Virus record (IMG/VR): IMGVR_UViG_3300037540_000380
Location: 1 to 35,104 of that record
Reading direction: 5' to 3' (one strand)
Length of the DNA stretch: 35,104 nt
DNA from: a virus
Below, in pieces: positions 3,112-29,439 of the stretch; the first letter of the stretch is position 1; each line of letters starts with the position of its first letter. Made by a program: the position numbers and the translations under genes. The notes below the pieces were generated by a model. It saw nothing but the letters and a program-made list of their open reading frames with translations, was not told where the DNA came from and searched no databases.

Positions 3112-4256
3112 TACCTCACCCTTGGTTTTCTGTCAGGAGGCTTTTGTAATTTCTTCCATTCAGTCCTCACATAATTCGCCAATTCATCCTCGAGTCCTTT
3201 GCCCTCAACAAATTTGATAAAATCAGGAAGAGACTGAATCTTCTTTCTTCCAGGCATTGAGTACCATTGACCCTTTGCTCCAAGAATCTCAGAATATTCT
3301 CTCAGCCACTGAACATTGTCCCTGATATCATCAATCCCATAATCCCAGAGAAGAGAAAAAGTGCAGGAGCGATAGGGCTTGTCAACCTTATTCTTGTAAA
3401 TGAAAGCCCAAATTCTCACCCCAAGAATCGGTCCATCCTTTTCATCCTGAATCAATCCCTTTTCCTCCAGATAGACTCTCACTGAGTACCAATGTTTTGT
3501 CGCCTGACCTCCAGAGGATTCATATTTCACAACTCTTTTCAATCCGTACTCAAATACATCACTAGATTTCTGCCTTGCTTGATTGATGAGAACTACACAC
3601 ATTCTCTTTGTCGCAATAGCAGCATGAGCCTGACGGGAAGAAGCAGAAATTGCTGCCGCGCGGGCCTGAGCGGCTCTCTTTCCCTTTCCCTCAGTCTCCA
3701 GAGCACAAGGGAGAACTGTAATTGAGTCAGTTACATCGAGGGCTCTTTCATCTTCTCCCAATTCTCTAGCAGCTTTATTGATTTTGCCATAGACTTTCTT
3801 CCTTGCTCTTCCAGTCCCAGTCGAATGAACTCCCATCAAATCCTCTATACATTTGACATGGCCTGGCCCTCTATAATGAAATCTCTCATCTTCAGGATTA
3901 AGCCCAAAAATTCCAGCCCTGGAAAACTCGAATGCTCCCTCTAAATCTCTCATGCGAATTGCGTCAAATCCTTCTCTTTGTGCTGATCCACAAAGTTCCC
4001 CAGCAAGATAAGTCTTTCCTGAGGACTCAGGTCCGAACAATTCCACGACTCGGCTCTCTGGGATTCCTCCTCTCCCATTGCAATCTGCCATCCCTGAAAT
4101 AGAAAGGTCAAGAGTGGTAGAGCCAGTGGAAAGATATCCCTTGATGTCTGCCTCACTCCGGCATTCAACAATTATCGGCTCATTCATTGCTTCGGAGTCT
4201 TTTATCTCCTCGATAGTATCTTGGACTCCTGGGCGTCGCCTCCTGGGCTTTGTCAT
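3111..4256 (-). CDS. recA: RecA/UvsX-like recombinase
   Basis: The P-loop GPESSGKT lies near residue 75 of the 381-aa product, preceded by LSTGSTTLDLSISG, the typical RecA/UvsX sequence before Walker A. VVLINQARQKSS near residue 220 matches the RecA strand with its conserved glutamine. These proteins form filaments on ssDNA and catalyse strand exchange. The start at 4256 (MTKPRRRRPG) follows AGGTGGG, a common SD of this genome; an ATG at 4286 would add 10 residues but has no good SD. The N-terminus is strongly basic. SSB, RuvC and SbcC-like genes nearby complete a recombination module. Confidence 0.9.
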   Translation of the reverse strand: MTKPRRRRPGVQDTIEEIKDSEAMNEPIIVECRSEADIKGYLSTGSTTLDLSISGMADCNGRGGIPESRVVELFGPESSGKTYLAGELCGSAQREGFDAIRMRDLEGAFEFSRAGIFGLNPEDERFHYRGPGHVKCIEDLMGVHSTGTGRARKKVYGKINKAARELGEDERALDVTDSITVLPCALETEGKGKRAAQARAAAISASSRQAHAAIATKRMCVVLINQARQKSSDVFEYGLKRVVKYESSGGQATKHWYSVRVYLEEKGLIQDEKDGPILGVRIWAFIYKNKVDKPYRSCTFSLLWDYGIDDIRDNVQWLREYSEILGAKGQWYSMPGRKKIQSLPDFIKFVEGKGLEDELANYVRTEWKKLQKPPDRKPRVR

Positions 4257-8766: not shown

Positions 8767-11283
8767 CTAATTCAGATTGATTTTTTTCAGATTATACCAG
8801 TCAGGGCCAGTCTTCGCTGTGATTCCGACTGGCGGATTTTTCGTCCATTTCCAAGGAAGATTCCGAAAGGTTTCATGGATGATTTCAAAAACTCTGTCCC
8901 TCTCCTCTTTTGGGTAATGAAATTCCGCCGAGTCATGAACTTGTTTTATTCCCCTCGCCCTGAGACCTTCTTCCCTCATTCTCCAGTCAGCAACAATGAA
9001 TGACCTGAGAAGATAATGAAAGGCAGTGCTCTGGATAGGGAAATTGATAATCTCATTGCTACTGAGCGGAGCCCTCCTCCTGAACCCGAGGAAAGTTTCC
9101 ACAAATCCATTGGTATTATAGGAGGAAAGTTGCCCTTCCTGCCAATCGATTGTTTGCCAGAACTCATCCCGAAATTCACCCCAAATGTTTTCCACATGGT
9201 CAAGAGTCACATTGAATCCATTCTTGATCAATCCCTTCTGAATAGAAAATGGGTATGCACCATAGAAAATAGGGAATACGAAGCCGTTTTTACCTGCCAT
9301 AGACCTTTCGTGCTCCGTAACCCCTTTTGAGGCCTTCTGGAGCAATTTTGCCGCATAATCGATGTGAAAATCATGGCCAGCAAGGATCATATCTATCATG
9401 ACTGAATCCTGGGTATAATGACATTGAGTAACCACCTCATGTTGGTCGTAATCAATCTCAATCATCTCCCAGCCAGGAAACCTCACCACAAATGCTTTCC
9501 TCAGGACTTTCCCTCTCTCATCCCTCTTCACAATATTCTGGAGATTTGGGTCTCGGCACGAACTTCGATAGGTCTCTGTATAATCCAGGCGGTAGGAGCA
9601 ATGAATCAATCCATCGTCCCAGAGATTAGACATGATATGTCCATCAACAAATGTCCCTTTGAATCTGGAATATTTATCTCTGTCCTGCCAATTCCGAATC
9701 CATTCTTCTTCATTTCTATGTTGAGCCAGATTAGCAACCGTAGTGCTCCATTGCTGGCGGGTCCTTACTCCTCCTGATAATCCGATTACTTCAAAGAGTA
9801 ATTCTCCCACTTGTTGGCGGCTGTTGAGATTCAATTCAGCATCTCTCTCCTTTTTCCATTTCTCAGCCCACTCATGTTCGAGTAACCATTCCTCGATTTC
9901 ATCTTTTTTCTTTTCAAATTCGTCCCCTATCTCATTCGCTAAATCCACGTCAACTTTCACTCCTTCTGCCTCCACCATAGCAAGACCGAGCGAACCCTTT
10001 TCCATAATCTCGGAGTAGGCGTAGTCGAAGTTTGGGTATTTCTCCTTCTCCTGCTCTTCATAGAGCATGAGCCCAAATCTGGAGTCATGACAACTATAAG
10101 GAAATAGCATATCATCTGGACATCTTCTCATATCCTTTTTGAAAGGTTTGATGCCTTCGTCATACTTACTTCCCCAGCGAGTGAATACTTGGAAATCCAA
10201 TGCCGTCGTATCTTTCGGTTCTCGCAACATATGTTGCCGAATCTGAGTGCAATCAAGTCGTCCCTGTGGCTCGATTCCCATGAACCATGACCAGTGGAGT
10301 TCATGAGTAATGTTATGGGCCGCCTTCCTGGTATTCGGATTCTCCAGAGCCTTTTTCCAAAGTCCACTAATGATTCTTCTTTGATGTCCATCCCAAAATC
10401 CTTGTTTCCAGGGAATGCAAAAAACTGTAATTCTCTCACCCGGGTCCCGAAAGGCCACGCTCCAGCAAAGAACCTCGCTGTCATTGTTATAAGGTCGGAG
10501 AGGATAATTCTCATAGTCAAAGAAAAAGTCCCTTGTCTGTAGTTTCTTGAGAAGGGACTTTGCTTCTTCAAAATCAATGACGGTATGGACATTCTCCATA
10601 TCCCAAAGATTTATCATCTCCTTTGCTTCTGGAAAATCTCCATCTCTCTTCCTCTCGTAAATCTTCCTGATTTCTTTCCAATCATTGCGGAAAACCCATT
10701 CGTACTTTGATTTCCCTCTTCCTCCATGAAGAATAGCCGCAGGATGATTCGAGCAGTAGACCCACGAGTTTTGATGAACCAACGGAATGAGGAGGCTTTG
10801 ATATTGAGCAACAGCAACCGTCCCAAAATTAGAAAGGGAGGCTTGAATCGCCTCCTTTCCGAGAGCAACAATCAACCAGGGATTCGCTTTCTGGACATCT
10901 TTCTGGAATAAATGATGACAGCATCTAACCTCAGTCGTCCAAGAATCCTTGCTTATTTGTGGCCAACATCTAAAAGCATTCTGAACATGGAAGTCAACAT
11001 CAAACTCAAATCCATTATCCTCCACAACCCCTCGAACTTGATCTCCTGCCATCCCAATAAATTGCCGGCCATCTCTGTCCTCATTCCTCCCTGGACTTTG
11101 GCCGGCAATGAAAATCCCCAATCTCCCCACTCCGCTCATCTTCATTTTTGGAGAGTTGACTTCTCGATATAGTCCGCACTTTTCGCAATCCCAATTAGCA
11201 GACTGATTCTGTTTCCTGGTTGTTTTTCCTTTCTTTTTAGGCCCACCCTCTTTATTCTTCTCTACCGGCCAAAAGAAACCCAT
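8767..11283 (-). CDS. Fusion of Fe-S uracil-DNA glycosylase and family A DNA polymerase
   Basis: Residues 30-200 match family 4/5 uracil-DNA glycosylases: C33/C36 (CEKCGLY), GQSPGRNEDRDGR as the active-site loop, C106 and C121 as further cluster ligands, and the NHPAAIL motif. A 3'-5' exonuclease domain begins with FFFDYEN (DxE). The C-terminal polymerase has motif A EIDYDQHEV, motif B RSMAGKNGFVFPIFYG and motif C KQVHDSAEF. At 838 aa it is the replicative polymerase. The N-terminal module may detect or remove uracil during synthesis. The SD AGGAGCAAAAG precedes the ATG, and clamp and clamp loader are neighbours. Confidence 0.93.
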   Translation of the reverse strand: MGFFWPVEKNKEGGPKKKGKTTRKQNQSANWDCEKCGLYREVNSPKMKMSGVGRLGIFIAGQSPGRNEDRDGRQFIGMAGDQVRGVVEDNGFEFDVDFHVQNAFRCWPQISKDSWTTEVRCCHHLFQKDVQKANPWLIVALGKEAIQASLSNFGTVAVAQYQSLLIPLVHQNSWVYCSNHPAAILHGGRGKSKYEWVFRNDWKEIRKIYERKRDGDFPEAKEMINLWDMENVHTVIDFEEAKSLLKKLQTRDFFFDYENYPLRPYNNDSEVLCWSVAFRDPGERITVFCIPWKQGFWDGHQRRIISGLWKKALENPNTRKAAHNITHELHWSWFMGIEPQGRLDCTQIRQHMLREPKDTTALDFQVFTRWGSKYDEGIKPFKKDMRRCPDDMLFPYSCHDSRFGLMLYEEQEKEKYPNFDYAYSEIMEKGSLGLAMVEAEGVKVDVDLANEIGDEFEKKKDEIEEWLLEHEWAEKWKKERDAELNLNSRQQVGELLFEVIGLSGGVRTRQQWSTTVANLAQHRNEEEWIRNWQDRDKYSRFKGTFVDGHIMSNLWDDGLIHCSYRLDYTETYRSSCRDPNLQNIVKRDERGKVLRKAFVVRFPGWEMIEIDYDQHEVVTQCHYTQDSVMIDMILAGHDFHIDYAAKLLQKASKGVTEHERSMAGKNGFVFPIFYGAYPFSIQKGLIKNGFNVTLDHVENIWGEFRDEFWQTIDWQEGQLSSYNTNGFVETFLGFRRRAPLSSNEIINFPIQSTAFHYLLRSFIVADWRMREEGLRARGIKQVHDSAEFHYPKEERDRVFEIIHETFRNLPWKWTKNPPVGITAKTGPDWYNLKKINLN

Positions 11284-15153: not shown

Positions 15154-15822
15154 CTATTTCAACAGGGGATCAGAAATCCCCGCCTCATCAAATCCCTTTG
15201 CTCTCAGGTCGCATGCTGGGCAGTTTCTACAAGGAGGTCTCATCCCTTCGTAACAAGTCTGAGTATGCTCATACCAATCCAACTTCCCCAATTGGCCCAT
15301 CATTTTCACAGTCAGTGCTTTCGAGAGATGCATGAGAGGAGTATGGATATCAATCCGATAATCCAAACATCTGAAGAGAGCCAATTCAACAGCATCAAGC
15401 GATTCCCTTCTGCAATCTGGATATCCAGAGTAATCAGTCTCACACATTCCTCCCACAAGATCGTTGATTCTCATATTGAAAGCATAAGCAGCGGCAAGCC
15501 CGAGAAGAATGTAATTCCTCCCTGGAACAAAAGAAGCAGGAAGGTCCTTGTTCCCTCTATGGCGGATGGAGATATTCTCATGTTTTGTAAGAAGAGCACT
15601 ATCTCCTATCTGAGAGAATGCTTGAATGTCGAGAGTTTCGTGATCCCTCGCTCCTGCTAGACGGGAAAGTTTCTTCGCAAAAACCAGCTCATCCAGATGT
15701 CGCTGACCATAATTGAAAGAAAGAGTGAAGACCCCTCCGAATCTATTTGCAGCCCAAGCAAGACAAGTAGCGGAATCCTGGCCTCCACTCAAAAGAACCA
15801 AGCAATTTTTATCTTTGCTCAT
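15154..15822 (-). CDS. queC: QueC, 7-cyano-7-deazaguanine (preQ0) synthase
   Basis: The 222-aa protein has the PP-loop LLSGGQDSATC at residues 10-20, FNYGQRH, the GGMCETDYSGYPDCR segment and the zinc cluster CRNCPACDLRAKGF near residues 195-208. QueC converts 7-carboxy-7-deazaguanine to preQ0 with ATP and ammonia. The start is ATG 15822 with AAGGAGG upstream; a longer reading to 15933 would run through the previous gene. There is no fused glutamine amidotransferase (Gat) domain, unlike Gat-QueC of phages that make deoxyarchaeosine, which favours preQ0 or a derivative as the inserted base. Confidence 0.95.
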   Translation of the reverse strand: MSKDKNCLVLLSGGQDSATCLAWAANRFGGVFTLSFNYGQRHLDELVFAKKLSRLAGARDHETLDIQAFSQIGDSALLTKHENISIRHRGNKDLPASFVPGRNYILLGLAAAYAFNMRINDLVGGMCETDYSGYPDCRRESLDAVELALFRCLDYRIDIHTPLMHLSKALTVKMMGQLGKLDWYEHTQTCYEGMRPPCRNCPACDLRAKGFDEAGISDPLLK

Positions 15823-16045
15823 AGCATTCCTCCTTCGCCAAATGTAGATAAAATAGAAAATCCGCCAAGACTGCTCGGTATTGCTCCAGGGAAACTCCCT
15901 CGCAATCTTCGACCTCGGCAACCCCATGCTCATACTCTTGGACTACCTCTACTGCTATTTCGCAGACTGACTTAAAATAAGGCGAGCAATCATCTGGGAA
16001 ATCATTCGCTATTTCCTCCCTCATCTTTGTCGCCACTGGATACAT
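15809..16045 (-). CDS. Hypothetical acidic protein, 78 aa
   Basis: The start is ATG 16045 (MYPVATKMREEIANDF) with GGGAGG upstream. The protein is acidic and helical (EIAVEVVQEYEHGVAEVEDC) and carries four cysteines. It overlaps the methyltransferase by 37 bp and queC by 14 bp, so all three are one translationally coupled unit. No family recognised. Confidence 0.65.
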   Translation of the reverse strand: MYPVATKMREEIANDFPDDCSPYFKSVCEIAVEVVQEYEHGVAEVEDCEGVSLEQYRAVLADFLFYLHLAKEECYEQR

Positions 16046-17000
16046 CAAAGAACCCTCCCTTTCTTGGGTCTCGTCTCCTCTTCCCCTTACCTGGAAAAGG
16101 CAAAGGACTTTTTTTCTCCGGCCGGCTCCGATATGTGGTAGCCCCTCTCGATGTAGACGGAGGGTCCCCTTTCTGGACAATCAAAAGAACCTCGGCGGCG
16201 GCCTCTGGATAGAGAATTGGAAAGAAGGACATCAGCCAGGCTGACGGAAGATATTCCTTCAGTCGCTGATATCTGATTATTTCCTCATCAGAACGACTTT
16301 TCATGAACTCCTCAAAATCCCTGACTTTGGCGACCAATCCAAAGGTATCCACTATAGAAAATCCCATCTTCTCTACCTCAGTCGATAATTCCTCCAAATC
16401 CCATTCATAGAGATGGGCAGCATACTGAGTGTCATAGGGGTCTTTTTTCTCCGCCGTATTCGGACAAGAGAGAAACATCCTCCCTCCATCCTTCAGGAGA
16501 TTCCAGCAGTTCTGGAGGCTATGTATCCCAGTCTCTTTTTGCATATGCTCTATGGATGAAGTGTAAACGATAAAATCAAAGGAATTATGCTCCAGGTGGG
16601 AGTCCATATCTTCACAGGAGCTGATTAGATGGGTGACTTGGAAAGGATAATACGAGGACATATCTTCGATGGTTCGGATTCCTGACCTTCTCTTCTGCTC
16701 ATTGATGTTCTTTTTCTCGATATCCACCCCAACATACTCCTTGATATTCTTCCGGTGATATCGAATGAGAGGGAGTAGGAGTCCTCTCCCACAGCAGACA
16801 TCAAGAACTCGCCATCCCTTCTTCATCATCATGACTGCCTTGTGATGTTGGATATAATTCATCACATCGAGAGATGAGAAGAATCCATCGGCGAATTGTT
16901 TATAAAAGTTTCTCATCTGATAAGTAGTACAATAGACTTCAGAAGGGTCAATCCCCTCCTCAATCTTGTAGACTATTTTTCTGGAATTTTTTTCAGGCAT
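16002..17000 (-). CDS. Class I SAM-dependent methyltransferase
   Basis: Motif I VLDVCCGRGLLLPLI lies near residue 65, motif II EYVGVDIEKKNI near 88, and FDFIVYTSSIEHM near 144 serves as motif IV, followed by LKDGGRMFLSCPN. This is the Methyltransf_11/25 pattern for small-molecule, lipid or protein substrates; there is no DPPY or PCQ motif, so a base methylase is unlikely. The last 65 residues are a basic low-complexity tail (PGKGKRRRDPRKGGFF). The gene follows a terminator and has SD GGAGGTGGG. Confidence 0.82.
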   Translation of the reverse strand: MPEKNSRKIVYKIEEGIDPSEVYCTTYQMRNFYKQFADGFFSSLDVMNYIQHHKAVMMMKKGWRVLDVCCGRGLLLPLIRYHRKNIKEYVGVDIEKKNINEQKRRSGIRTIEDMSSYYPFQVTHLISSCEDMDSHLEHNSFDFIVYTSSIEHMQKETGIHSLQNCWNLLKDGGRMFLSCPNTAEKKDPYDTQYAAHLYEWDLEELSTEVEKMGFSIVDTFGLVAKVRDFEEFMKSRSDEEIIRYQRLKEYLPSAWLMSFFPILYPEAAAEVLLIVQKGDPPSTSRGATTYRSRPEKKSPLPFPGKGKRRRDPRKGGFFDVSSGDKDEGGNSE

Positions 17001-22690: not shown

Positions 22691-22705
22691 AATTCCCTCC
22701 TTTCA

Positions 22706-22776
22706 ATAGTCTCCCTCATCAGTGGCGGTAGACTATCTCCGCCAGACAGGGGCAAAATAGCCCCTGTTTCGGGTTA
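22706..22776 (-). ncRNA. Type II hammerhead ribozyme 9
   Basis: Core read 5'-3' on the minus strand: UAACCC, GAAA, stem III CAGGGGC/GCCCCUG, triplet GUC with predicted cleavage between 22745 and 22744, stem I UGGCGG/CCGCCA with loop AGAUAGUCUA, CUGAUGA, GGG. Stem II is CCC/GGG, a compensated change from GCC/GGC elsewhere. Loop AUAGUCU pairs with 3' flank AGACUAU (7 bp). UAA is the stop of the 22774 gene. Confidence 0.9.
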
Positions 22777-23061
22777 TCGATATCTCTTGAGCGTCTCCTC
22801 AAATTCAAGGATTGCCTTCCTCAATCCCTCCGCAGTTCCTTCATAATAGTGACCCCAATGGGCACTATTATCCTCAGGATTCACATGCCAGACAACAAAT
22901 TCTGCCATCTCATTCATTCCCCACTTCGCAAGAACTATTTCAAATCTGACATCATCCTTGGCGGCAGGAATTTGCTCATGAAGAATGACATCCGCTCCAT
23001 TGGCCAATTTCCAACCATCAATCGTCATTCCAAAAGGTCTTGCCAAAGTTTCTTCAGCCAT
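22774..23061 (-). CDS. Hypothetical protein, 95 aa
   Basis: MAEETLARPFGMTIDGWKLA, then two beta-rich stretches (VRFEIVLAKWGMNEMAEFVV) and WHVNPEDNSAHWGHYYEGT and a C-terminal helix. No family recognised; it looks like a small single-domain phage protein. The stop UAA is the first part of hammerhead 9. It follows the 23025 gene with a 37-bp overlap and SD GAGGTGGGCT. Confidence 0.7.
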   Translation of the reverse strand: MAEETLARPFGMTIDGWKLANGADVILHEQIPAAKDDVRFEIVLAKWGMNEMAEFVVWHVNPEDNSAHWGHYYEGTAEGLRKAILEFEETLKRYR

Positions 23062-23201
23062 AGCCCACCTCTCTTTTTCTTTTTTGGGTAAGGAAACTCC
23101 ATCCAGACAACATCATGGACAATGAGAAAAATCCTCTTGTCAATGTCATCCAATAGGAGGGTCCCTCCGAGACATTCTGCGATATTAAACAGACTCCTCA
23201 T
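23025..23201 (-). CDS. Small protein, 58 aa
   Basis: ATG 23201 has GGGAGGTGG upstream. The sequence (MRSLFNIAECLGGTLLLDDI, then IFLIVHDVVWMEFPYPKKKK) is hydrophobic in the middle with a basic C-terminus. It overlaps both the 23185 gene and the 22774 gene. It is weakly similar in style to a small membrane-associated protein, but no clear transmembrane helix is seen. Confidence 0.55.
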   Translation of the reverse strand: MRSLFNIAECLGGTLLLDDIDKRIFLIVHDVVWMEFPYPKKKKRGGLWLKKLWQDLLE

Positions 23202-24123
23202 CGTCCACCTCCCTTTCAAGAAAATCCTCTACCTCAGTCCAATTGTCAGATGCCTTGGTCAGATTCACCTTCCCCAAATCCTCCCTCAATTTATCCTGTG
23301 CATAAATTTTGGGGTCGACCAAATCACCCACTGCATCCTGAATCAATTCCTCGATTACTTTGGGTTCCAGGGCGTCCAATTCCCAACTATCGTACCCATA
23401 CTCGCTCACATACTCGCCTGCCCTTGAATCAGATAACTTGGCCGGATTCGGAGGAGGATTGTACTGAGAAATCTGGTCCATGTTCAGAGCAATCCTCTTG
23501 ACAATAACTGGCTGGACTCCCTCATACCGCATGAATAGACGGAGCCGCTCCTGAATATCCCGAGTCATATCAAGCCCACTGGGGTCATGATCGCCGAGAT
23601 GGAGAATCATGGTCTCCTGGCCATTTCCACTACATCTGATTAGGCGCTGAGCGGCCCCCCACATTTCCGATTGACTGGTATATCCTCGACAAGAGAAATA
23701 AGGAACATCCCAGCCATTGCAAACCCTCTCCAGAACCCCCACAAGAGCATCCTTCTCAATCCAAACCTCCACCTTCCAGGGCTGATTTTCCCATTTATCG
23801 ACCCGATAGGAAGAAGCCGCAGAGCGAATGATTGAAGAAGGAGATGTCCAATGTGGAAGAGCCTGGAGATTCCTTGTCCTGTCCTCGATAGAATTCCAAT
23901 CAATCAGACCCGCTAATCTCGCATCATTCATAACAGACCCAAGTTTATTGTACTCCCTCTGGAGATTAGGAATCAGGTCTCGGGCAACAAACTGATAATA
24001 AAGTTGCCTCAGGGTGAGAACAAATCCCTGAACCCGATACTCCTCAATAATGACTTGGGCGGTAGCGATGGTGTAGAGAGTCTTGTCTTGGAAATCCTTC
24101 GGCACATAACAAATCTTTGGCAT
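23185..24123 (-). CDS. Toprim protein related to topoisomerase VI subunit A / Spo11
   Basis: The 312-aa protein has TLRQLYYQFVARDLIPN near residue 37, a winged-helix segment with the paired tyrosines typical of Topo VI-A/Spo11 relatives. VEVWIEKDALVGVL near residue 118 gives the Toprim glutamate, and HLGDHDPSGLDM near residue 175 gives the DxD motif. Phage and plasmid proteins of this pattern are known but their reactions are not well established; cleavage or metal-dependent nuclease activity is possible. SD GGAGGTGGG precedes the ATG, directly after hammerhead 8. Confidence 0.75.
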   Translation of the reverse strand: MPKICYVPKDFQDKTLYTIATAQVIIEEYRVQGFVLTLRQLYYQFVARDLIPNLQREYNKLGSVMNDARLAGLIDWNSIEDRTRNLQALPHWTSPSSIIRSAASSYRVDKWENQPWKVEVWIEKDALVGVLERVCNGWDVPYFSCRGYTSQSEMWGAAQRLIRCSGNGQETMILHLGDHDPSGLDMTRDIQERLRLFMRYEGVQPVIVKRIALNMDQISQYNPPPNPAKLSDSRAGEYVSEYGYDSWELDALEPKVIEELIQDAVGDLVDPKIYAQDKLREDLGKVNLTKASDNWTEVEDFLEREVDDEESV

Positions 24124-24140
24124 AAGCCCACCTCCTTTTT

Positions 24141-24212
24141 TGACCTATCTCATCAGGCTGGGTAGGTCATTTCCCAGCGATGGAGAGGGGTTCCCTCTCC
24201 ATTTCGATTCTA
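24141..24212 (-). ncRNA. Type II hammerhead ribozyme 8
   Basis: UAGA, AUC, GAAA, stem III UGGAGAGGG/CCCUCUCCA (9 bp, 3-nt loop), triplet AUC with predicted cleavage between 24179 and 24178, stem I GCUGGG/CCCAGC with loop AAAUGACCUA, CUGAUGA, GAU. Stem II is AUC/GAU, changed on both sides relative to GCC/GGC. Loop UGACCU pairs with flank AGGUCA (6 bp). UAG is the stop of the 24210 gene. Confidence 0.92.
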
Positions 24213-24359
24213 ATTACATTCAAAGCAAACCCTCGCGGGTCCGTCCACTGCAGGATGGAAGTCAACTTGGCCCAAATTTTCGGGGTCCATGACTATTCCA
24301 CATATCTCGCAGAAGTCCTCTTCTTCCTCTATTATAGAGGTGTGCATCGAAATCTTCAC
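24210..24359 (-). CDS. Small zinc-ribbon protein, 45-49 aa
   Basis: The protein has CEICGIVMDPENLGQVDFHP followed by AVDGPARVCFECN at its end: two CxxC pairs about 25 residues apart, a likely zinc ribbon or treble clef. Either GTG 24359, which overlaps the preceding stop as GTGA, or the in-frame ATG 24347 could be the start; I give the GTG. It ends in the UAG of hammerhead 8. Function unknown. Confidence 0.65.
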   Translation of the reverse strand: MKISMHTSIIEEEEDFCEICGIVMDPENLGQVDFHPAVDGPARVCFECN

Positions 24360-24487
24360 TTTTCATCCTCACTTTCTTCAATGGAGTCCCAGGCAAGGCC
24401 ATAGATTAAATGGCTCACAATATTCGCCATCTCACTACTCTCTTTCGATATGTGACAAACCATATCGAACTCTTCTGTCGGCGTCAT
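24356..24487 (-). CDS. Tiny acidic protein, 43 aa
   Basis: ATG 24487 has GAGGAGG upstream. The product MTPTEEFDMVCHISKESSEM ends in an acidic stretch EESEDEK. It is helical and has no recognised motif. It sits within a five-gene unit between hammerheads 7 and 8 and is coupled to its neighbour by GTGA. Confidence 0.6.
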   Translation of the reverse strand: MTPTEEFDMVCHISKESSEMANIVSHLIYGLAWDSIEESEDEK

Positions 24488-24497
24488 TGATTCCTCC

Positions 24498-24776
24498 TCA
24501 CCCACGAAAATCCTGGGCTAGTTTATGAGCGATGTCCCTGATTTCTTCCTTCCAGCGCTCCTGATACCCGCTAGAATAAAAGACATCACTCAATCTGTCC
24601 ATCACCAAATCCTTGAATCCATCGACAGCATCGTCGTAATTCCCTTCCCCTCCAGCCTGAAGTAAATCCGCTCCCACTTGCTGCCAATACATACCCATCT
24701 GCTCAGTGATTTCGTCAATCAGGACTTCTGTCCTGGCCTTAAAACTGAACTCCATTCCATCAACTAATCCTTGCAT
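24498..24776 (-). CDS. Hypothetical helical protein, 92 aa
   Basis: MQGLVDGMEFSFKARTEVLI, then mostly helical acidic sequence (YDDAVDGFKDLVMDRLSDVF, ERWKEEIRDIAHKLAQDF). No family recognised. The ATG has AAGGAGG upstream and lies within the end of the 24764 gene (13-bp overlap). Confidence 0.7.
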   Translation of the reverse strand: MQGLVDGMEFSFKARTEVLIDEITEQMGMYWQQVGADLLQAGGEGNYDDAVDGFKDLVMDRLSDVFYSSGYQERWKEEIRDIAHKLAQDFRG

Positions 24777-24985
24777 GATTTCCTCCTTTTCGGAGATTTC
24801 GTCCTTTTCAGATACTCCTCAAAAGAAAGGAGAAATCCTATCCAGGTGAATTGAATGCAATCGCATCCAGGGGTTTTACAGCGACCATGACCAAATTGAA
24901 GATTGTCCTCATGAGCGCTGTTCGGGCCATCACCAAGACAGCCACACTCACACATCGATTTCGGTTTCTGATAATTTTCCGGCAT
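24764..24985 (-). CDS. Small Cys-rich protein, 73 aa
   Basis: CECGCLGDGPNSAHEDN and CKTPGCDC give seven Cys/His that could form one or two zinc sites. The C-terminus is a basic helix (EEYLKRTKSPKRRKSC). SD GGAGGTGGG precedes ATG 24985. It is one of several small zinc-type proteins in this operon. Function unknown. Confidence 0.68.
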   Translation of the reverse strand: MPENYQKPKSMCECGCLGDGPNSAHEDNLQFGHGRCKTPGCDCIQFTWIGFLLSFEEYLKRTKSPKRRKSCKD

Positions 24986-24996
24986 ATCCCACCTCC

Positions 24997-25218
24997 TTAC
25001 TGGACTCTTCTGGCCCAGTATTCATTTACCTGCAACCAACCTTTTTCGCCCTGAACATGAGCCACAGGCCCATCATATCGAGCGTGATAAAATTCTTCAT
25101 TTATTAGGTCAGCCGCTCTTGCTGCGCTCTCCAGGGAATCAAATTTGACATTTGCATTCTTCACCAATGGAAGGCGCTTCTCAAAACCCTCGTACTTTTC
25201 ATAATAAATTGTCGCCAT
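24997..25218 (-). CDS. Hypothetical protein, 73 aa
   Basis: MATIYYEKYEGFEKRLPLVK, then an alpha/beta stretch (FDSLESAARAADLINEEFYH) with a final aromatic strand. The pattern (beta, loop, helix, beta) recalls small RNA- or ligand-binding folds but no motif is diagnostic. It begins the five-gene unit released by hammerhead 7. Confidence 0.68.
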   Translation of the reverse strand: MATIYYEKYEGFEKRLPLVKNANVKFDSLESAARAADLINEEFYHARYDGPVAHVQGEKGWLQVNEYWARRVQ

Positions 25219-25234
25219 TTAACCCACCTCCTTT

Positions 25235-25309
25235 GTTAGGTTGCCTCATCAGACCCTCGGAACCAACCCGAGGGTGATGGAAGGGATTTCTCCCCTCCAT
25301 TTCGGCTCA
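25235..25309 (-). ncRNA. Type II hammerhead ribozyme 7
   Basis: UGA, GCC, GAAA, stem III UGGAGGGG/CCCUUCCA (8 bp, one G-U), triplet AUC with predicted cleavage between 25276 and 25275, stem I ACCCUCGG/CCGAGGGU with loop GUUGGUU, CUGAUGA, GGC. Loop and flank can pair as GGUU/AACC or GUUGG/CUAAC, the least clear pseudoknot of the set. UGA is the stop of the 25307 gene. Confidence 0.9.
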
Positions 25310-25582
25310 TTCGGTCAAATCCCGCATCAACTTGCAATAGCGAGTGAAAGAATTTGGCCATCGACAAGCGACCAATTCCACATTGTTGAATGACCAATGG
25401 CACATCAGGACTCCCTTCACATCTTTATCAATGATGATTTTGTGAAGTTTATCAGCATGCCATTGATTAAAAACCCAGCCAACTTCGCCAGTCTCGACAT
25501 TCCTCACATAATCCCCTGGAATGATTCCATCTGGCTCCACTTTCCTTCCAAAAATTACATCTTTGGTAATTTCGTACGGCAT
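25307..25582 (-). CDS. Hypothetical protein, 91 aa
   Basis: The start is ATG 25582 (MPYEITKDVIFGRKVEPDGI) after GGAGGTGGGC. The N-terminal half (PGDYVRNVETGEVGWVF) looks like a small SH3-like or KOW-like beta barrel, followed by a mixed alpha/beta half. No firm family. A longer reading to 25672 runs through the previous gene and is rejected. The stop UGA lies in hammerhead 7. Confidence 0.68.
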   Translation of the reverse strand: MPYEITKDVIFGRKVEPDGIIPGDYVRNVETGEVGWVFNQWHADKLHKIIIDKDVKGVLMCHWSFNNVELVACRWPNSFTRYCKLMRDLTE

Positions 25583-25593
25583 TGCCCACCTCC

Positions 25594-25758
25594 TTACTTG
25601 ATTTTCTTTGCCCACCGCGCCAAGACGGCTAGGCAGTGTTTGCATGTGACTTTGGTTTTGTCTTCTGTCCAATCCCTGTACGCTGGATATCGCCTGCCAT
25701 GATTATGGCAAGCCATTTTCTTCGTGATAGGATTGAAATAATGTTTGGCGTAACTCAT
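25594..25758 (-). CDS. Small zinc-knuckle-like protein, 54 aa
   Basis: ATG 25758 follows GGAGGTGG. MSYAKHYFNPITKKMACHNH has a C..H pair, and TCKHCLAVLARW has CxxC, so one zinc could be bound by C17, H20 and two Cys. The protein is basic (16 K/R). Such small C-H/C-C proteins are common in phage accessory regions. Function unknown. Confidence 0.65.
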   Translation of the reverse strand: MSYAKHYFNPITKKMACHNHGRRYPAYRDWTEDKTKVTCKHCLAVLARWAKKIK

Positions 25759-25770
25759 GATATCCACCTC

Positions 25771-25941
25771 CTACCATTCTACAGACTTTGAGAAATAAAA
25801 ATGATGGATGAAATATGAATAAGTCGTATCATCCATCTCCACTGTGGGGCTGGACATCACTAAATCAGGACTTACCCAGCATCCTCCCTCATAAATATGC
25901 GCTACATAAGACGCAAGAATCTCCTCCACTAATGGATACAT
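25771..25941 (-). CDS. Hypothetical protein, 56 aa
   Basis: ATG 25941 follows GGAGGTGGGT. The product begins MYPLVEEILASYVAHIYEGG and ends with aromatic residues (YSYFIHHFYFSKSVEW). It is acidic in the middle and rich in Tyr/Phe. No family recognised. It is the first gene after hammerhead 6, followed 12 nt later by the 25594 gene. Confidence 0.62.
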   Translation of the reverse strand: MYPLVEEILASYVAHIYEGGCWVSPDLVMSSPTVEMDDTTYSYFIHHFYFSKSVEW

Positions 25942-25956
25942 AACCCACCTCCTTTA

Positions 25957-26028
25957 ATAGGTTGCCTCATCAGTAGACGGGTCCCTAGCCCATCCAGACA
26001 GGGAGGAAATTCCTCCCTGTTTCGGCTA
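25957..26028 (-). ncRNA. Type II hammerhead ribozyme 6
   Basis: UAGCC, GAAA, stem III CAGGGAGGA/UCCUCCCUG (9 bp, 3-nt loop), triplet GUC with predicted cleavage between 25997 and 25996, stem I UGGAUGGG/CCCGUCUA (8 bp with G-U pairs) with loop CUAGGGA, CUGAUGA, GGC. Loop UAGG pairs with flank CCUA. The stop UAG of the 26026 gene supplies the first G of stem II. Confidence 0.9.
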
Positions 26029-26640
26029 AACAAGGTCAATCTCAACTGACCCACATCGAGGACAAGTATTCCGGTCCGCAGTAGCCCAAAAGGCTTTGTC
26101 ACAATCATTGCAGATATACCCGTACTCAATAGGAATATCAGGATGCCTCTCAGCATCGGTTTCCCTCGGGTCTTTTTCCCTGCGGACAGCACAATGATTC
26201 TGGCTATCCAACTTCTCAAATTGCTTCGGATAGACTCTCTTGAAAAGATTCAGGGAGAAAACGCAAGCGCCTCTTTCGCCTTTCCCTCTCGCATGAGCAA
26301 ACTCATGGAGAAGGGTAATGATGGAGAGTTTCCCCTGCATCACTATTTTATGTTGAAGTCGATGATAATAAGAATCACCGGAATGACCTCCATTGATATT
26401 CATCGCTTCAAAGCCAGGACATTCAATGTCATAGACTTTGGAAAGGTCCTCCAGTAATTCTCCCATTGCCTCCAGACGACCAGGGACATCCATTTTGAAG
26501 GTCTTTTTGGCCTTGAATTTCCTCAGGGCCGCAATAGCACCTTTCTTAAATTTGACATCCTTGATGTTCTCAGCCATTGTCGCAGGGTATTCCCGCATGG
26601 CCTCCAAATCGCCTAACATTGCTCTCATTCCTAATCTCAT
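26026..26640 (-). CDS. Putative zinc metallopeptidase-like protein with zinc ribbon, 204 aa
   Basis: A helix LSIITLLHEFAHARGKG near residue 110 has the HExxH zincin motif (HEFAH), and a C-terminal four-Cys ribbon reads YICNDCDKAF with CPRCGS. This order (HExxH then zinc ribbon) resembles SprT-like proteins. The N-terminal 70 residues are helical and basic. The third metal ligand cannot be fixed from sequence. Possible roles include cleaving host or DNA-crosslinked proteins. SD GGAGGTGGG and hammerhead 5 lie upstream. Confidence 0.72.
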   Translation of the reverse strand: MRLGMRAMLGDLEAMREYPATMAENIKDVKFKKGAIAALRKFKAKKTFKMDVPGRLEAMGELLEDLSKVYDIECPGFEAMNINGGHSGDSYYHRLQHKIVMQGKLSIITLLHEFAHARGKGERGACVFSLNLFKRVYPKQFEKLDSQNHCAVRREKDPRETDAERHPDIPIEYGYICNDCDKAFWATADRNTCPRCGSVEIDLV

Positions 26641-26664
26641 GACCCACCTCCTATAATAATTGAT

Positions 26665-26736
26665 TTGTCTGCCTCATCAGGCTGGGTAGACAATTTCCCA
26701 GCGATGGAGAGGGAATCCCTCTCCATTTCGGCGTTA
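26665..26736 (-). ncRNA. Type II hammerhead ribozyme 5
   Basis: UAAC, GCC, GAAA, stem III UGGAGAGGG/CCCUCUCCA, triplet AUC with predicted cleavage between 26703 and 26702, stem I GCUGGG/CCCAGC with loop AAAUUGUCUA, CUGAUGA, GGC. Loop UUGUCU pairs with flank AGACAA. Stems I and III equal those of ribozyme 8, yet the pseudoknot differs on both sides. UAA is the stop of the 26734 gene. Confidence 0.92.
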
Positions 26737-27003
26737 GAAGTTTCTGATAATGTGGTGAATCAGAGTGGCTTCTCTCAGAGCATGAATGAATTGCTTCGTC
26801 CCTCTGAATACTAGGTCGATTCCCTTCTGCTCCTTGACCCGCTCTTTGACCTTCTTCATATATTTCCAGACATCAGCCGTGGTATGGTCGACCATGGCCA
26901 TTTGCTGAACAATAGAAGTGAAGGTCGAGCCCTCGAATTTCGTACCATCTTCCATAATCACCACATACATTCCTCGAGCATTTTCATCCTTTTTCTTTTT
27001 CAT
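26734..27003 (-). CDS. Hypothetical protein, 89 aa
   Basis: MKKKKDENARGMYVVIMEDG, then TKFEGSTFTSIVQQM and a helical basic half (WKYMKKVKERVKEQKGIDLV) ending in IHHIIRNF. No family recognised. It lies 6 nt after the amidotransferase gene without a ribozyme between, so both share one processed RNA between hammerheads 4 and 5; a shared function is possible. Confidence 0.68.
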   Translation of the reverse strand: MKKKKDENARGMYVVIMEDGTKFEGSTFTSIVQQMAMVDHTTADVWKYMKKVKERVKEQKGIDLVFRGTKQFIHALREATLIHHIIRNF

Positions 27004-27009
27004 GATTCC

Positions 27010-27654
27010 TTACCTCCCATTATAAACAAAATGTTGGTATCCAGGTCGATTATCAACAACTTGGACCTTCCTTCTCCTCTGAGGCTCAACTTTGTATCTA
27101 TCATTGGAGTAGATAAGGCCATGGTCTTTAATCCAACCCTCACCGAGAAGAATTATCTTCTCTGCTACATCAAGAAAAATCATCCTACTGGCACCAATGG
27201 AGCGGGTAATCAGAGAAAGAACTGCCTCTGAATCAAGATTGCTCTGGACAGCAGGGTCAGAAAGAACGTCCCTCACAAATACCATAGTATCTGAAAGGTC
27301 ATTCTCACCATCACCAATCATCCCATTATGAGCGACGGCGACTGGACAAAGAACATCAAGAGCCTTCAAATCAGAAACCTTGTCACTCAGAGGAAATGGA
27401 TGACAATTTCCTGGCTCGATTGTCCCAGCAGTGGCCCATCTGAAATGGAAAACGATGATATCATTCTTGGTTAACTTCAATGCACGGAAGGCTTTCCAGA
27501 AATCGGAAAATTCCATGTAGCCTTTATCGATGACCACATGTCCATCCTTCACATACATCATCCCAGCGCCATCAGGATTATTCTCCCAGCAATTGCGGAG
27601 AATCTTCTTTGATGGCATCTCCTTACCTTTCGGTTTAATCACTAAAATACACAT
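27010..27654 (-). CDS. Class II glutamine amidotransferase-like Ntn hydrolase
   Basis: The protein begins MCILVIKPKGKEMPSKKIL, so after Met removal Cys2 becomes the N-terminal nucleophile, as in class II GATases. NNPDGAGMMYVKDG, VFHFRWATAGTIEPGNCHPF and AHNGMIG match the family's substrate-binding and oxyanion regions. The 214-aa length is that of a stand-alone GATase domain. With the amidoligase at 28274-29335 it forms a pair: glutamine supplies ammonia or the enzyme handles gamma-glutamyl amide bonds. SD GGAGGTGGG follows hammerhead 4. Confidence 0.82.
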   Translation of the reverse strand: MCILVIKPKGKEMPSKKILRNCWENNPDGAGMMYVKDGHVVIDKGYMEFSDFWKAFRALKLTKNDIIVFHFRWATAGTIEPGNCHPFPLSDKVSDLKALDVLCPVAVAHNGMIGDGENDLSDTMVFVRDVLSDPAVQSNLDSEAVLSLITRSIGASRMIFLDVAEKIILLGEGWIKDHGLIYSNDRYKVEPQRRRKVQVVDNRPGYQHFVYNGR

Positions 27655-27683
27655 TTGCCCACCTCCTTATTAAATTGAAAATC

Positions 27684-27750
27684 TTAGGTTGCCTCATCAG
27701 TGGATGGATTCCCATTCCATCCAGACGGGAGCGGACTCCCGTTTCGGCTA
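27684..27750 (-). ncRNA. Type II hammerhead ribozyme 4
   Basis: UAGCC, GAAA, stem III CGGGAG/CUCCCG with UCCG tetraloop, triplet GUC with predicted cleavage between 27724 and 27723, stem I UGGAUGGA/UCCAUCCA with loop AUGGGAA, CUGAUGA, GGC. Loop UGGG can pair with flank CCUA with one G-U. The stop UAG of the 27748 gene forms the 5' edge of stem II. Confidence 0.9.
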
Positions 27751-27942
27751 GAGATAAATTTTGAGGACACCAAAAATTTCATCCATCCTCACCTCAGGAC
27801 AATTTTCCCGAATGACTCTGGCACAAAGGTTGGCGTTCCTCTCGCGAGGGAAATCAGCATGAATCCATCCTTCTCCCTCAGTCACCTTGGCTCCTCTCTG
27901 CTCGAGAAAGGAAATGATATCTTCTCTTGTATTGCCTTTCAT
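27748..27942 (-). CDS. Hypothetical protein, 64 aa
   Basis: MKGNTREDIISFLEQRGAKV, TEGEGWIHADFPRERNANLC, then a helix and a C-terminal strand IFGVLKIYL. A small alpha/beta protein with no known motif. SD GGAGGTGGG precedes the ATG. It is alone between hammerheads 3 and 4, so it would be released as a monocistronic RNA of about 270 nt. Confidence 0.66.
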   Translation of the reverse strand: MKGNTREDIISFLEQRGAKVTEGEGWIHADFPRERNANLCARVIRENCPEVRMDEIFGVLKIYL

Positions 27943-27956
27943 GACCCACCTCCTTA

Positions 27957-28037
27957 TTAGGTTGCCTCATCAGTGAATGAGTCCCTAACTCATTCAGACC
28001 TGACCCCTGGTATTTCCAGAGGCGAGGTTTCGGCTTA
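27957..28037 (-). ncRNA. Type II hammerhead ribozyme 3
   Basis: UAAGCC, GAAA, long stem III (CCU/AGG, CG/UC internal loop, CCUCUGG/CCAGGGG), triplet GUC with predicted cleavage between 27997 and 27996, stem I UGAAUGAG/CUCAUUCA with loop UUAGGGA, CUGAUGA, GGC. Loop UUAGG pairs with flank CCUAA (5 bp). Stem I and 3' core match ribozyme 1 over about 42 nt. UAA is the stop of the 28035 gene. Confidence 0.9.
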
Positions 28038-28166
28038 CTGTTCGATGACCACTTCAAATTCGGGTCGATTCAATCCAAGGACTTCATCCCTGCAATCTGT
28101 CCAAGCAATCCATCCCAATCCAAAAACAGGAGTCATAAAAATCAAAAATCCTATAAATGTCAACAT
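28035..28166 (-). CDS. Tiny membrane protein, 43 aa
   Basis: ATG 28166 follows GGGGGGTAGGGCC. The product MLTFIGFLIFMTPVFGLGWI contains one hydrophobic segment (residues 2-22) and then an acidic soluble tail (TDCRDEVLGLNRPEFEV). No family recognised. It lies alone between hammerheads 2 and 3, giving a predicted monocistronic RNA of about 240 nt. Its stop UAA lies in hammerhead 3. Confidence 0.62.
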   Translation of the reverse strand: MLTFIGFLIFMTPVFGLGWIAWTDCRDEVLGLNRPEFEVVIEQ

Positions 28167-28200
28167 GGCCCTACCCCCCAATATTTGAATGTTGATTTTC

Positions 28201-28276
28201 AGTCTGCCTCATCAGGCCAGGGAGACTATTCCCTGACGACCCAGGCAAGAGCTTCGGTAGCCTGGGTTTCGGCTTA
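28201..28276 (-). ncRNA. Type II hammerhead ribozyme 2
   Basis: UAAGCC, GAAA, stem III CCCAGGC/GCCUGGG with a 13-nt loop, triplet GUC with predicted cleavage between 28238 and 28237, stem I GUCAGGG/CCCUGGC with loop AAUAGUCU, CUGAUGA, GGC. Loop AGUCU pairs with flank AGACU (5 bp). UAA is the stop of the amidoligase gene. Confidence 0.92.
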
Positions 28277-29335
28277 GGCGGCATTCCGCAGAGCCTCAAA
28301 ATGATTCACTCGGTTGAGGTACCAATCACAAGCGATGGTCACCAGCGAATTATCATTCTGAGGAGTCACATTGGAACCCATCTCGATAACGGCTGCGTCT
28401 GTGGGAAAATCCTTCCCATTCCGCCAGCGGGAAAACCAAGTCTTGGCGGAGACGACGGCAACTTCATACCGAGCAGCGATATCATCAGCATCAAGACTCT
28501 GACCTGATTCAACCCACTCAGCATAAACTCGAGACTTAATGGTATTGCGCCTGGCCCTCGGACGACGACGAGGAGCCGGAGAAGATTCTTGCTCAGCTCT
28601 CAGGATTTCAATCATCTGGAATTGATTCACTGGAGCATCAAAGTAACAGGCAAGAGCCTTATCCACAATAACCTGAGTGAAGATTGTCCAATTCGCAATC
28701 TTCTCATACTCAGTTGTCCCTGAATGGGCACGAAACTCAACTGTATTCCTCAACCAGTAAGATTCCAGGTTCAAGGAAACATATCGAGAATCATAATCAC
28801 ACCCACCACCAAGACAATTTCTTGAGAATGATCTTAGGCTACTTCGGCTGGCTCGACGAGCACCCTGTCTCTTCCAGGTCTTGCAGTAGTAATTATCCTG
28901 CCGAGACTTGGGAAGAGCCTTCATCACATGCCCTTCGATATTAATCCAGGCTTCAACCATGTTCCTCAGTTCCATCTCACTAGAAACAAAATGATGAACA
29001 TGAAGTCCACATTTCCTTGAGATTTTTGTATGAGGTTCAATGGCTTCACAAACCGCCATCAGCACTCTGAGACCGTCCCGACCCTTGAGCACCGGAGAAA
29101 CAACTTCGGCGTCCGTAGAGTGAGTATCCCTGAAAGGATTCCCACTGGTCAGGGAACTATCAGGCTTCACCATCCAGACTGTGGTGTTCAGAGAATCAGT
29201 ACTATGCTGATAACTTCCAGACACACAGGTGTGTCCAAACTGGCTGATGGCATCTTTAATCTTCCGAGCCAAAGCAGCCCTTGAGATTGAGGAATGAGTC
29301 TCGATCTCGATTCCATATGTTCTTTGCGTATTCAT
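28274..29335 (-). CDS. Amidoligase family protein (glutamine synthetase-like fold)
   Basis: The 353-aa protein starts MNTQRTYGIEIETHSSISRA; YGIEIE is the first metal-binding strand of the GCS/amidoligase superfamily. AEVVSPVL, CGLHVHHFV and NTVEFRAHSGT give the remaining conserved acidic and His residues. Family members join an amine to a carboxylate with ATP. Residues 265-285 are a basic linker (APRRRPRARRN), followed by a possible helix-turn-helix. The start is ATG 29335 after GGAGGTGGGC; the reading to 29449 crosses hammerhead 1 and is rejected. The GATase at 27010 is its likely partner. Confidence 0.82.
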   Translation of the reverse strand: MNTQRTYGIEIETHSSISRAALARKIKDAISQFGHTCVSGSYQHSTDSLNTTVWMVKPDSSLTSGNPFRDTHSTDAEVVSPVLKGRDGLRVLMAVCEAIEPHTKISRKCGLHVHHFVSSEMELRNMVEAWINIEGHVMKALPKSRQDNYYCKTWKRQGARRASRSSLRSFSRNCLGGGCDYDSRYVSLNLESYWLRNTVEFRAHSGTTEYEKIANWTIFTQVIVDKALACYFDAPVNQFQMIEILRAEQESSPAPRRRPRARRNTIKSRVYAEWVESGQSLDADDIAARYEVAVVSAKTWFSRWRNGKDFPTDAAVIEMGSNVTPQNDNSLVTIACDWYLNRVNHFEALRNAA

Positions 29336-29370
29336 TGCCCACCTCCTATTGAATAAAGAATCAAAAATTC

Positions 29371-29439
29371 TAGGTTGCCTCATCAGTGAATGAGTCCCTA
29401 ACTCATTCAGACGGGGAATTGCTTCCCCGTTTCGGCTTA
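29371..29439 (-). ncRNA. Type II hammerhead ribozyme 1
   Basis: UAAGCC, GAAA, stem III CGGGG/CCCCG with an 8-nt loop, triplet GUC with predicted cleavage between 29410 and 29409, stem I UGAAUGAG/CUCAUUCA with loop UUAGGGA, CUGAUGA, GGC. Loop UAGG pairs with flank CCUA. UAA is the stop of the 29437 gene. First of nine in transcription order. Confidence 0.92.

Follow-up and report, generated by a model that had tools for sequence, protein, structure and literature searches.

Nine type II hammerhead ribozymes in the gene junctions of a phage operon

The IMG/VR virus record IMGVR_UViG_3300037540_000380 (35,104 nucleotides (nt), analysed whole and called here the window) carries short elements between the genes of a minus-strand operon that resemble the self-cleaving hammerhead ribozyme (HHR). 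Are these elements genuine type II HHRs and, if so, what would so many of them do in a single operon? An original prediction proposed nine of them, all on the sense strand of the operon, regarded them as an array cutting one operon and as a new gene-expression system, and suggested a search with the Rfam type II covariance model as a check. Here we confirm, from sequence and predicted structure, that the nine elements are type II HHRs, for which self-cleavage is predicted, and we consider their likely role.

Identity and structure of the elements

The window was searched, with filters off and on both strands, with a covariance model (R1) whose training set was 12 HHRs, all taken from other phages. 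These 12 have a stem I of equal length, a restriction adopted because a MAFFT alignment of 41 HHRs of mixed length misaligned the cleavage triplet. R1 identifies exactly nine elements, all on the minus strand, which encodes the operon, with E values from 7.4e-18 to 2.2e-7. The tenth-best match has an E value of 0.52, and R1 finds no HHR in the remainder of the 35-kb record, where the genes are also mostly on the minus strand. Number and strand are therefore as originally predicted, and the positions agree within 1-4 nt.

The Rfam model (RF02276), used in a whole-record search, detects eight of the nine. Five are above the gathering cut-off (37 bits) and three below; an initial cmscan of the window listed five elements. 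HHR no. 8 (24138-24212) is not detected by Rfam, even in a 351-base scan. We regard the type II identity as supported. A structural descriptor, applied to both strands of 200 shuffled windows, gave one chance match. The elements are listed below with coordinates on the whole stretch; the predicted cut is that after the GUC or AUC triplet.

HHR-II no. 1: 29368..29436, minus strand; cut 29410/29409, expected after GUC; upstream of the amidoligase gene; R1 71 bits, E 4.5e-17; Rfam 40.7 bits
HHR-II no. 2: 28197..28274, minus strand; cut 28238/28237; R1 43.9 bits, E 7.7e-10; Rfam 50.9 bits
HHR-II no. 3: 27955..28035, minus strand; cut 27997/27996; long stem III arm; R1 59.3 bits, E 6e-14; Rfam 33.3 bits, below cut-off
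HHR-II no. 4: 27682..27749, minus strand; cut 27724/27723; R1 73.9 bits, E 7.4e-18; Rfam 43.6 bits
HHR-II no. 5: 26662..26733, minus strand; AUC site; cut 26703/26702; R1 42.9 bits, E 1.4e-9; Rfam 35.5 bits, below cut-off
HHR-II no. 6: 25955..26027, minus strand; cut 25997/25996; R1 68.7 bits, E 1.8e-16; Rfam 34 bits, below cut-off
HHR-II no. 7: 25234..25307, minus strand; AUC site; cut 25276/25275; R1 57.7 bits, E 1.6e-13; Rfam 41.2 bits
HHR-II no. 8: 24138..24212, minus strand; AUC site; cut 24179/24178; A-U-rich stem II; covarying 7-base-pair (bp) pseudoknot; upstream of the topoisomerase gene; R1 34.7 bits, E 2.2e-7; no Rfam match
HHR-II no. 9: 22704..22774, minus strand; cut 22745/22744; 8-bp pseudoknot; R1 44.8 bits, E 4.5e-10; Rfam 45.4 bits

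In each element CGAAA is followed by stem III, a cleavage triplet (GUC or AUC), stem I and CUGAUGA, with a stem II of 3 bp, which agrees with the predicted order (GAAA, stem III, GUC or AUC, stem I, CUGAUGA, stem II). The NUH cleavage triplet and the conserved core (CUGAUGA ... CGAAA) are intact in all nine; stem II is open while stems I and III are closed by loops. The first six positions of stem I show two to four pair types each and are paired in every element. Three positions of stem III are similarly varied and also paired in all nine (over seven positions, in eight of nine), and stem II shows one to three pair types.

A pseudoknot between loop I and the tail downstream of stem II is possible in all nine elements (4-8 bp, with some G-U pairs): for example, UUGUCU:AGACAA in no. 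5, UGACCUA:UAGGUCA in no. 8 and GAUAGUCU:AGACUAUU in no. 9. In no. 4 the expected pairing is merely UGGG:CCUA, with one G-U pair. The pseudoknot columns of an independent HHR set are paired in 91.7% of cells and three of the four pairs have changed on both sides, compared with 34-41% pairing when the whole structure is placed in slid registers as a control. The stem percentages of that set are inflated because its rows were chosen with a stem descriptor; the pseudoknot columns played no part in the choice. Perreault et al. 2011 (PMC3088659) showed that fast cleavage at 0.5 mM Mg2+ depends critically on this pseudoknot. The type II HHR (RF02276) described there shares with the elements of the window the fold, the core, the NUH site, a stem II that is short and open, and the loop I-3' tail pseudoknot, which most of its members possess. 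The elements of the window differ from it by ordinary variation only (the AUC sites and the A-U-rich stem II of no. 8).

Some elements resemble each other in part. HHRs 1 (29436-29368) and 3 (28035-27955) have an identical 3' half and unrelated stem III sequences, while HHRs 5 (26733-26662) and 8 (24212-24138) have both hairpins in common and different, covarying pseudoknots. This suggests that half-elements may have been copied or recombined.

Placement between the genes and the proposed role

All nine ribozymes start between -1 and +1 nt from the stop codon of the preceding gene. They end just ahead of the ribosome-binding site (RBS) of the next gene, whose start codon then follows, and the leader from the predicted cleavage site to this start codon is 54-74 nt. 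The array is dense: nine HHRs on the same strand in 6.7 kb, delimiting units of one to five genes and occupying about 640 of the 1063 intergenic nt in the region (about 60%). Scans for promoters and terminators in the region yielded no excess of candidates over shuffled sequences, with no sign of internal terminators at the HHRs.

We think it likely that the nine HHRs are active and serve as punctuation in a polycistronic phage transcript. After transcription each HHR would fold with an open 3-bp stem II, hairpins III and I and a pseudoknot between loop I and the tail, the latter lying immediately ahead of the Shine-Dalgarno (SD) sequence, and would cut after its GUC or AUC. Hammerhead chemistry leaves a 2',3'-cyclic phosphate on the upstream product and a 5'-OH on the downstream product. 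The upstream product would end with the stem III hairpin and the cyclic phosphate, a few dozen nt past its stop codon; the downstream product would carry its 5'-OH right at the stem I hairpin, and the next start codon would lie 54-74 nt further on. The outcome would be mRNAs of one to five genes whose two ends are both hairpins and whose 5' leader is uniform, and decay and translation of each unit would be separated from those of its neighbours. Hairpins at both mRNA ends together with a 5'-OH are expected to slow exonucleases and the 5'-end-dependent RNase E. For this reason we favour punctuation into short, stable mRNAs, which would presumably stabilise and insulate each unit to the benefit of the phage.

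Placement, strand and recurrence support the idea of an array cutting one operon, with cleavage itself predicted. The description as a new gene-expression system is overstated, since HHR clusters in prophages were published in 2011. The gene units are as follows.

28274..29335, minus strand: Amidoligase_2 gene, between HHR 1 and 2 (Pfam PF12224, E 9.6e-29)
28035..28181, minus strand: open reading frame (ORF) of 48 amino acids (aa), between HHR 2 and 3 (gene map)
27748..27942, minus strand: 64-aa ORF, between HHR 3 and 4 (gene map)
26734..27654, minus strand: a gene weakly matching glutamine amidotransferase (27010-27654) and an 89-aa ORF, between HHR 4 and 5
26026..26640, minus strand: zinc-ribbon protein gene, between HHR 5 and 6 (HEFAH (HExxH) motif, read from the sequence)
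25307..25941, minus strand: three small ORFs, between HHR 6 and 7 (gene map)
24210..25218, minus strand: five small ORFs, between HHR 7 and 8 (gene map)
22774..24123, minus strand: two genes, between HHR 8 and 9 (DNA topoisomerase, phrog_6247, E 2e-110, and a 95-aa ORF)

Relatives of the topoisomerase gene occur on 37 contigs, of which one alone carries an HHR. The gap ahead of the gene in these relatives is short (median 14 nt), so that the HHRs were not acquired together with it. A search of IMG/VR with the amidoligase gene gave no relatives. This gene lies near the weakly matching glutamine-amidotransferase-like gene within the same array (27010-29335), and a combination of this kind would point to amide modification of peptides or of the cell wall.

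Arrays and tRNA-like elements in other phages

In IMG/VR, a single scan for an exact pattern returned 102 stretches. In whole-record RF02276 searches of 79 records, 14 contain at least three HHRs and six at least seven. Three of these six constitute one Streptomyces-phage-like family (L150-L152), which matches Streptomyces phages of the Arquatrovirinae. Whole-record searches of these cultured phages gave 12 HHRs in Salutena, 11 in Alvy, 10 in Urza, 9 each in Andris and Spernnie and 8 in Amethyst, in each case on one strand, and none in Endor1, Endor2 and South40. R1 is concordant with these counts for Alvy, Endor1, Endor2 and South40. Public annotation of the array regions in these phages does not mention ribozymes, and we found no report of Streptomyces-phage HHR arrays in the open-licence literature. 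Large one-strand arrays (7-12 copies) are commoner than reported and occur in several unrelated phages, including cultured ones. The view that type II HHRs occur mostly singly is overstated, given the prophage clusters known since 2011.

Like the window, the Arquatrovirinae arrays consist of 8-12 intergenic type II HHRs on one strand, but they belong to a different phage group with no detected shared protein. No protein of the window matches any array phage; the sole match among the compared loci is the topoisomerase of L162, a contig with a single HHR. It follows that arrays originated in, or were acquired by, several lineages that are not related. Elsewhere, in phages that have diverged to about 50% protein identity (L148, L153 and L159), an HHR is retained ahead of homologous genes, which are about 46-66% identical. 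A blastn search with one HHR against the phage collection gave no match.

We also surveyed the placement of 191 elements at 107 loci in viral and prokaryotic contigs, where the pattern of the window recurs. Among the 180 elements with an upstream ORF on the same strand, 115 start within 5 nt of its stop codon. An RBS and start codon follow 152 of the 191. The median distance to the SD sequence is 14 nt, and all 21 loci with at least three elements are one-stranded.

The three phages that lack HHRs, Endor1 (L219), Endor2 (L220) and South40 (L222), carry a different element of about 40 nt at many of their gene junctions. It is tRNA-like and combines an acceptor-like stem of 5 bp, an 11-nt linker including GGCA and a stem of 6 bp that bears the T-loop TTCGAGT (for example, L222:3280-3319 and L219:2535-2574). 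Each of the three phages has 7-9 copies on the operon strand; neither the HHR phages nor the window has any. All 12 tested pairs form in every sequence and eight have changed on both sides. Rfam gave only sub-threshold matches on the three genomes, and one search for the pattern in viral contigs turned up isolated, scattered candidate matches. The tRNA-like fold makes these elements probable RNase P substrates. In Endor2, an annotated 'tRNA-Arg' (L220:3767-3849), also called by ARAGORN, overlaps the tRNA-like element at 3808-3847 and is probably not a real tRNA.

Do the two elements occupy the same junctions? Using reciprocal-best-hit genes, we compared Alvy, Andris, Amethyst and Spernnie (HHR) with South40 and Endor1 (tRNA-like). 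Several orthologous junctions carry an HHR in one or other of the former and a tRNA-like element in South40 or Endor1. At the junction ahead of an OCR-like antirestriction gene, both neighbours are orthologous. Others lie before an acetyltransferase gene (Endor1), after South40 gene 70 and before South40 gene 56, the last with a variant loop read by eye. The junctions around the dNMP kinase gene carry neither element. The agreement gives a Fisher p of 0.02 for South40 and Andris and of 0.28 for Endor1 and Andris, from gene sides counted by hand and not fully independent.

The main argument that the cut itself is the selected property is this replacement of the HHR by an unrelated element at some shared junctions, for which the sister phages provide a natural comparison. 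The presence of tRNA-like elements at several HHR-equivalent junctions supports punctuation as the function. A broader proposal is that operon-wide punctuation has evolved repeatedly and independently in phages, with hammerheads in some lineages and, in the sister Streptomyces phages, tRNA-like minihelices that host RNase P would cut as interchangeable modules at the gene junctions. We put this forward tentatively, judging it slightly less probable than its contrary. If true, the division of long phage transcripts into units that end in hairpins would be a general strategy of gene expression favoured by selection, comparable to the way in which tRNAs punctuate transcripts in mitochondria.

Alternative explanations, known systems and other genes

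Several observations weigh against transcript punctuation. The text of Perreault et al. (PMC3088659) reports that 4 of 18 consensus HHRs were inactive. Ribosomes ending the upstream gene could hinder folding, so that cleavage may be partial. HHRs are present at some gene junctions only, and phages with a homologous topoisomerase have none at that gene, which indicates that punctuation is dispensable in general. Finally, the agreement between HHRs and tRNA-like elements is significant in one phage pair only (p 0.02, compared with 0.28 for the other).

The HHRs could instead be conditional switches, that is, regulated 5' leader elements each tuning its downstream gene, in which cleavage competes with upstream translation or with pairing between tail and RBS. 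A terminating ribosome would cover stem II, as the ribozyme begins at the upstream stop codon, and folds predicted for the leader after cleavage allow the pseudoknot tail (mostly AACCUA) to pair with the following AGGAGGUGGGUU, for example at 25252-25218 and 27973-27942; ribozyme folding and RBS masking may compete in several elements. However, the elements are compact in all phages surveyed, with no conserved additional ligand-binding domain, the ACCU tail is accounted for by its pseudoknot partner and varies along with the loop, and the tRNA-like elements of the sister phages occupy the same junctions without such a tail. We consider such switches unlikely. A general anti-SD function of the tail was rejected, as the tail follows its pseudoknot partner. 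It is less probable still that the HHRs have spread as recombination cassettes, repeated joints for gene swap or insertion by homologous recombination with little effect on expression. Elements are indeed alike within arrays (the 3' halves of nos. 1 and 3, both hairpins of nos. 5 and 8), and in the Streptomyces phage relative L122 a segment of roughly 550 bp lies between two HHRs, with a breakpoint inside the ribozyme. Compared with L080, which has one HHR at that place, this extra segment represents a gene gained at an HHR. Most indel breakpoints in this phage family, however, are away from HHRs, although some fall inside ribozymes, and selfish spread leaves the exact stop/RBS placement, one-strandedness, core conservation and replacement by an unrelated RNA unexplained.

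Cleavage by consecutive HHRs leaves segments with a 5'-OH and a 2',3'-cyclic phosphate, ends on which RtcB-type ligases act, and, as in retrozymes, the segments between ribozymes might be cut out and closed into circular RNAs. This is very improbable here: the position of the RBS speaks for mRNA, the units consist of ordinary, differing protein-coding genes rather than the repeated non-coding unit that an HHR pair surrounds in a retroelement of the retrozyme type, and spliced or circular products of tandem HHRs were sought by Perreault et al. and, in the text of that paper (PMC3088659), none was found. As for chance or decayed hammerhead-like sequences, the eighth element does fall below Rfam detection, but nine intact cores, E values of 2e-7 or better with an independent model, the single match in 200 shuffles and compensatory changes reduce the probability of this to almost nil.

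Punctuation by active HHRs, the reading we retain, has known precedents. The text of Perreault et al. (PMC3088659) already includes type II HHRs, their pseudoknot, prophage clusters flanking genes (Clostridium scindens, Azorhizobium caulinodans and Agrobacterium tumefaciens), a proposed role in mRNA processing and cleavage of tandem sets in vitro and of a triple set in E. coli. Like the window, these clusters place several HHRs between genes of one transcript; the window has nine in 6.7 kb, whereas that text describes tandem and triple sets. The stop/RBS rule and large arrays in unrelated phages are absent from it, although its figures or supplement may include larger clusters. A 2017 review (PMC6155905) notes HHRs close together flanking small ORFs and treats the role of HHRs in prokaryotes as an open question. 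RiboJ-type insulators (PMC7536230) also place a hammerhead between upstream RNA and RBS and so provide a uniform 5' leader, but they are engineered, single, placed after a promoter and composed of a hammerhead with an added hairpin. In Clostridium operons subject to selective RNA processing and stabilisation (PMC8219983, PMC4423207), intergenic processing and end hairpins likewise set mRNA stability, but without self-cleaving RNA.

Three findings are new with respect to the literature searched: the operon-wide scale of the arrays (7-12), which recurs in several lineages and in cultured phages among them, the stop/RBS rule, and the element of tRNA-like form that is their counterpart in sister phages. 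Large arrays with a strict stop/RBS position in cultured phages of laboratory Streptomyces strains make HHR function directly testable, and natural arrays also offer compact parts with which synthetic operons could be split.

Two other features of the window may be mentioned. A gene at 8767-11283 encodes a family A DNA polymerase with an N-terminal domain of the uracil-DNA-glycosylase superfamily, an unusual fusion (PF00476, E 3e-52; PF03167, E 9.7e-15). At 15154-17000 a QueC-like 7-deazaguanine gene (PF06508, E 7e-64) adjoins a methyltransferase gene, suggesting that the phage DNA may be modified.

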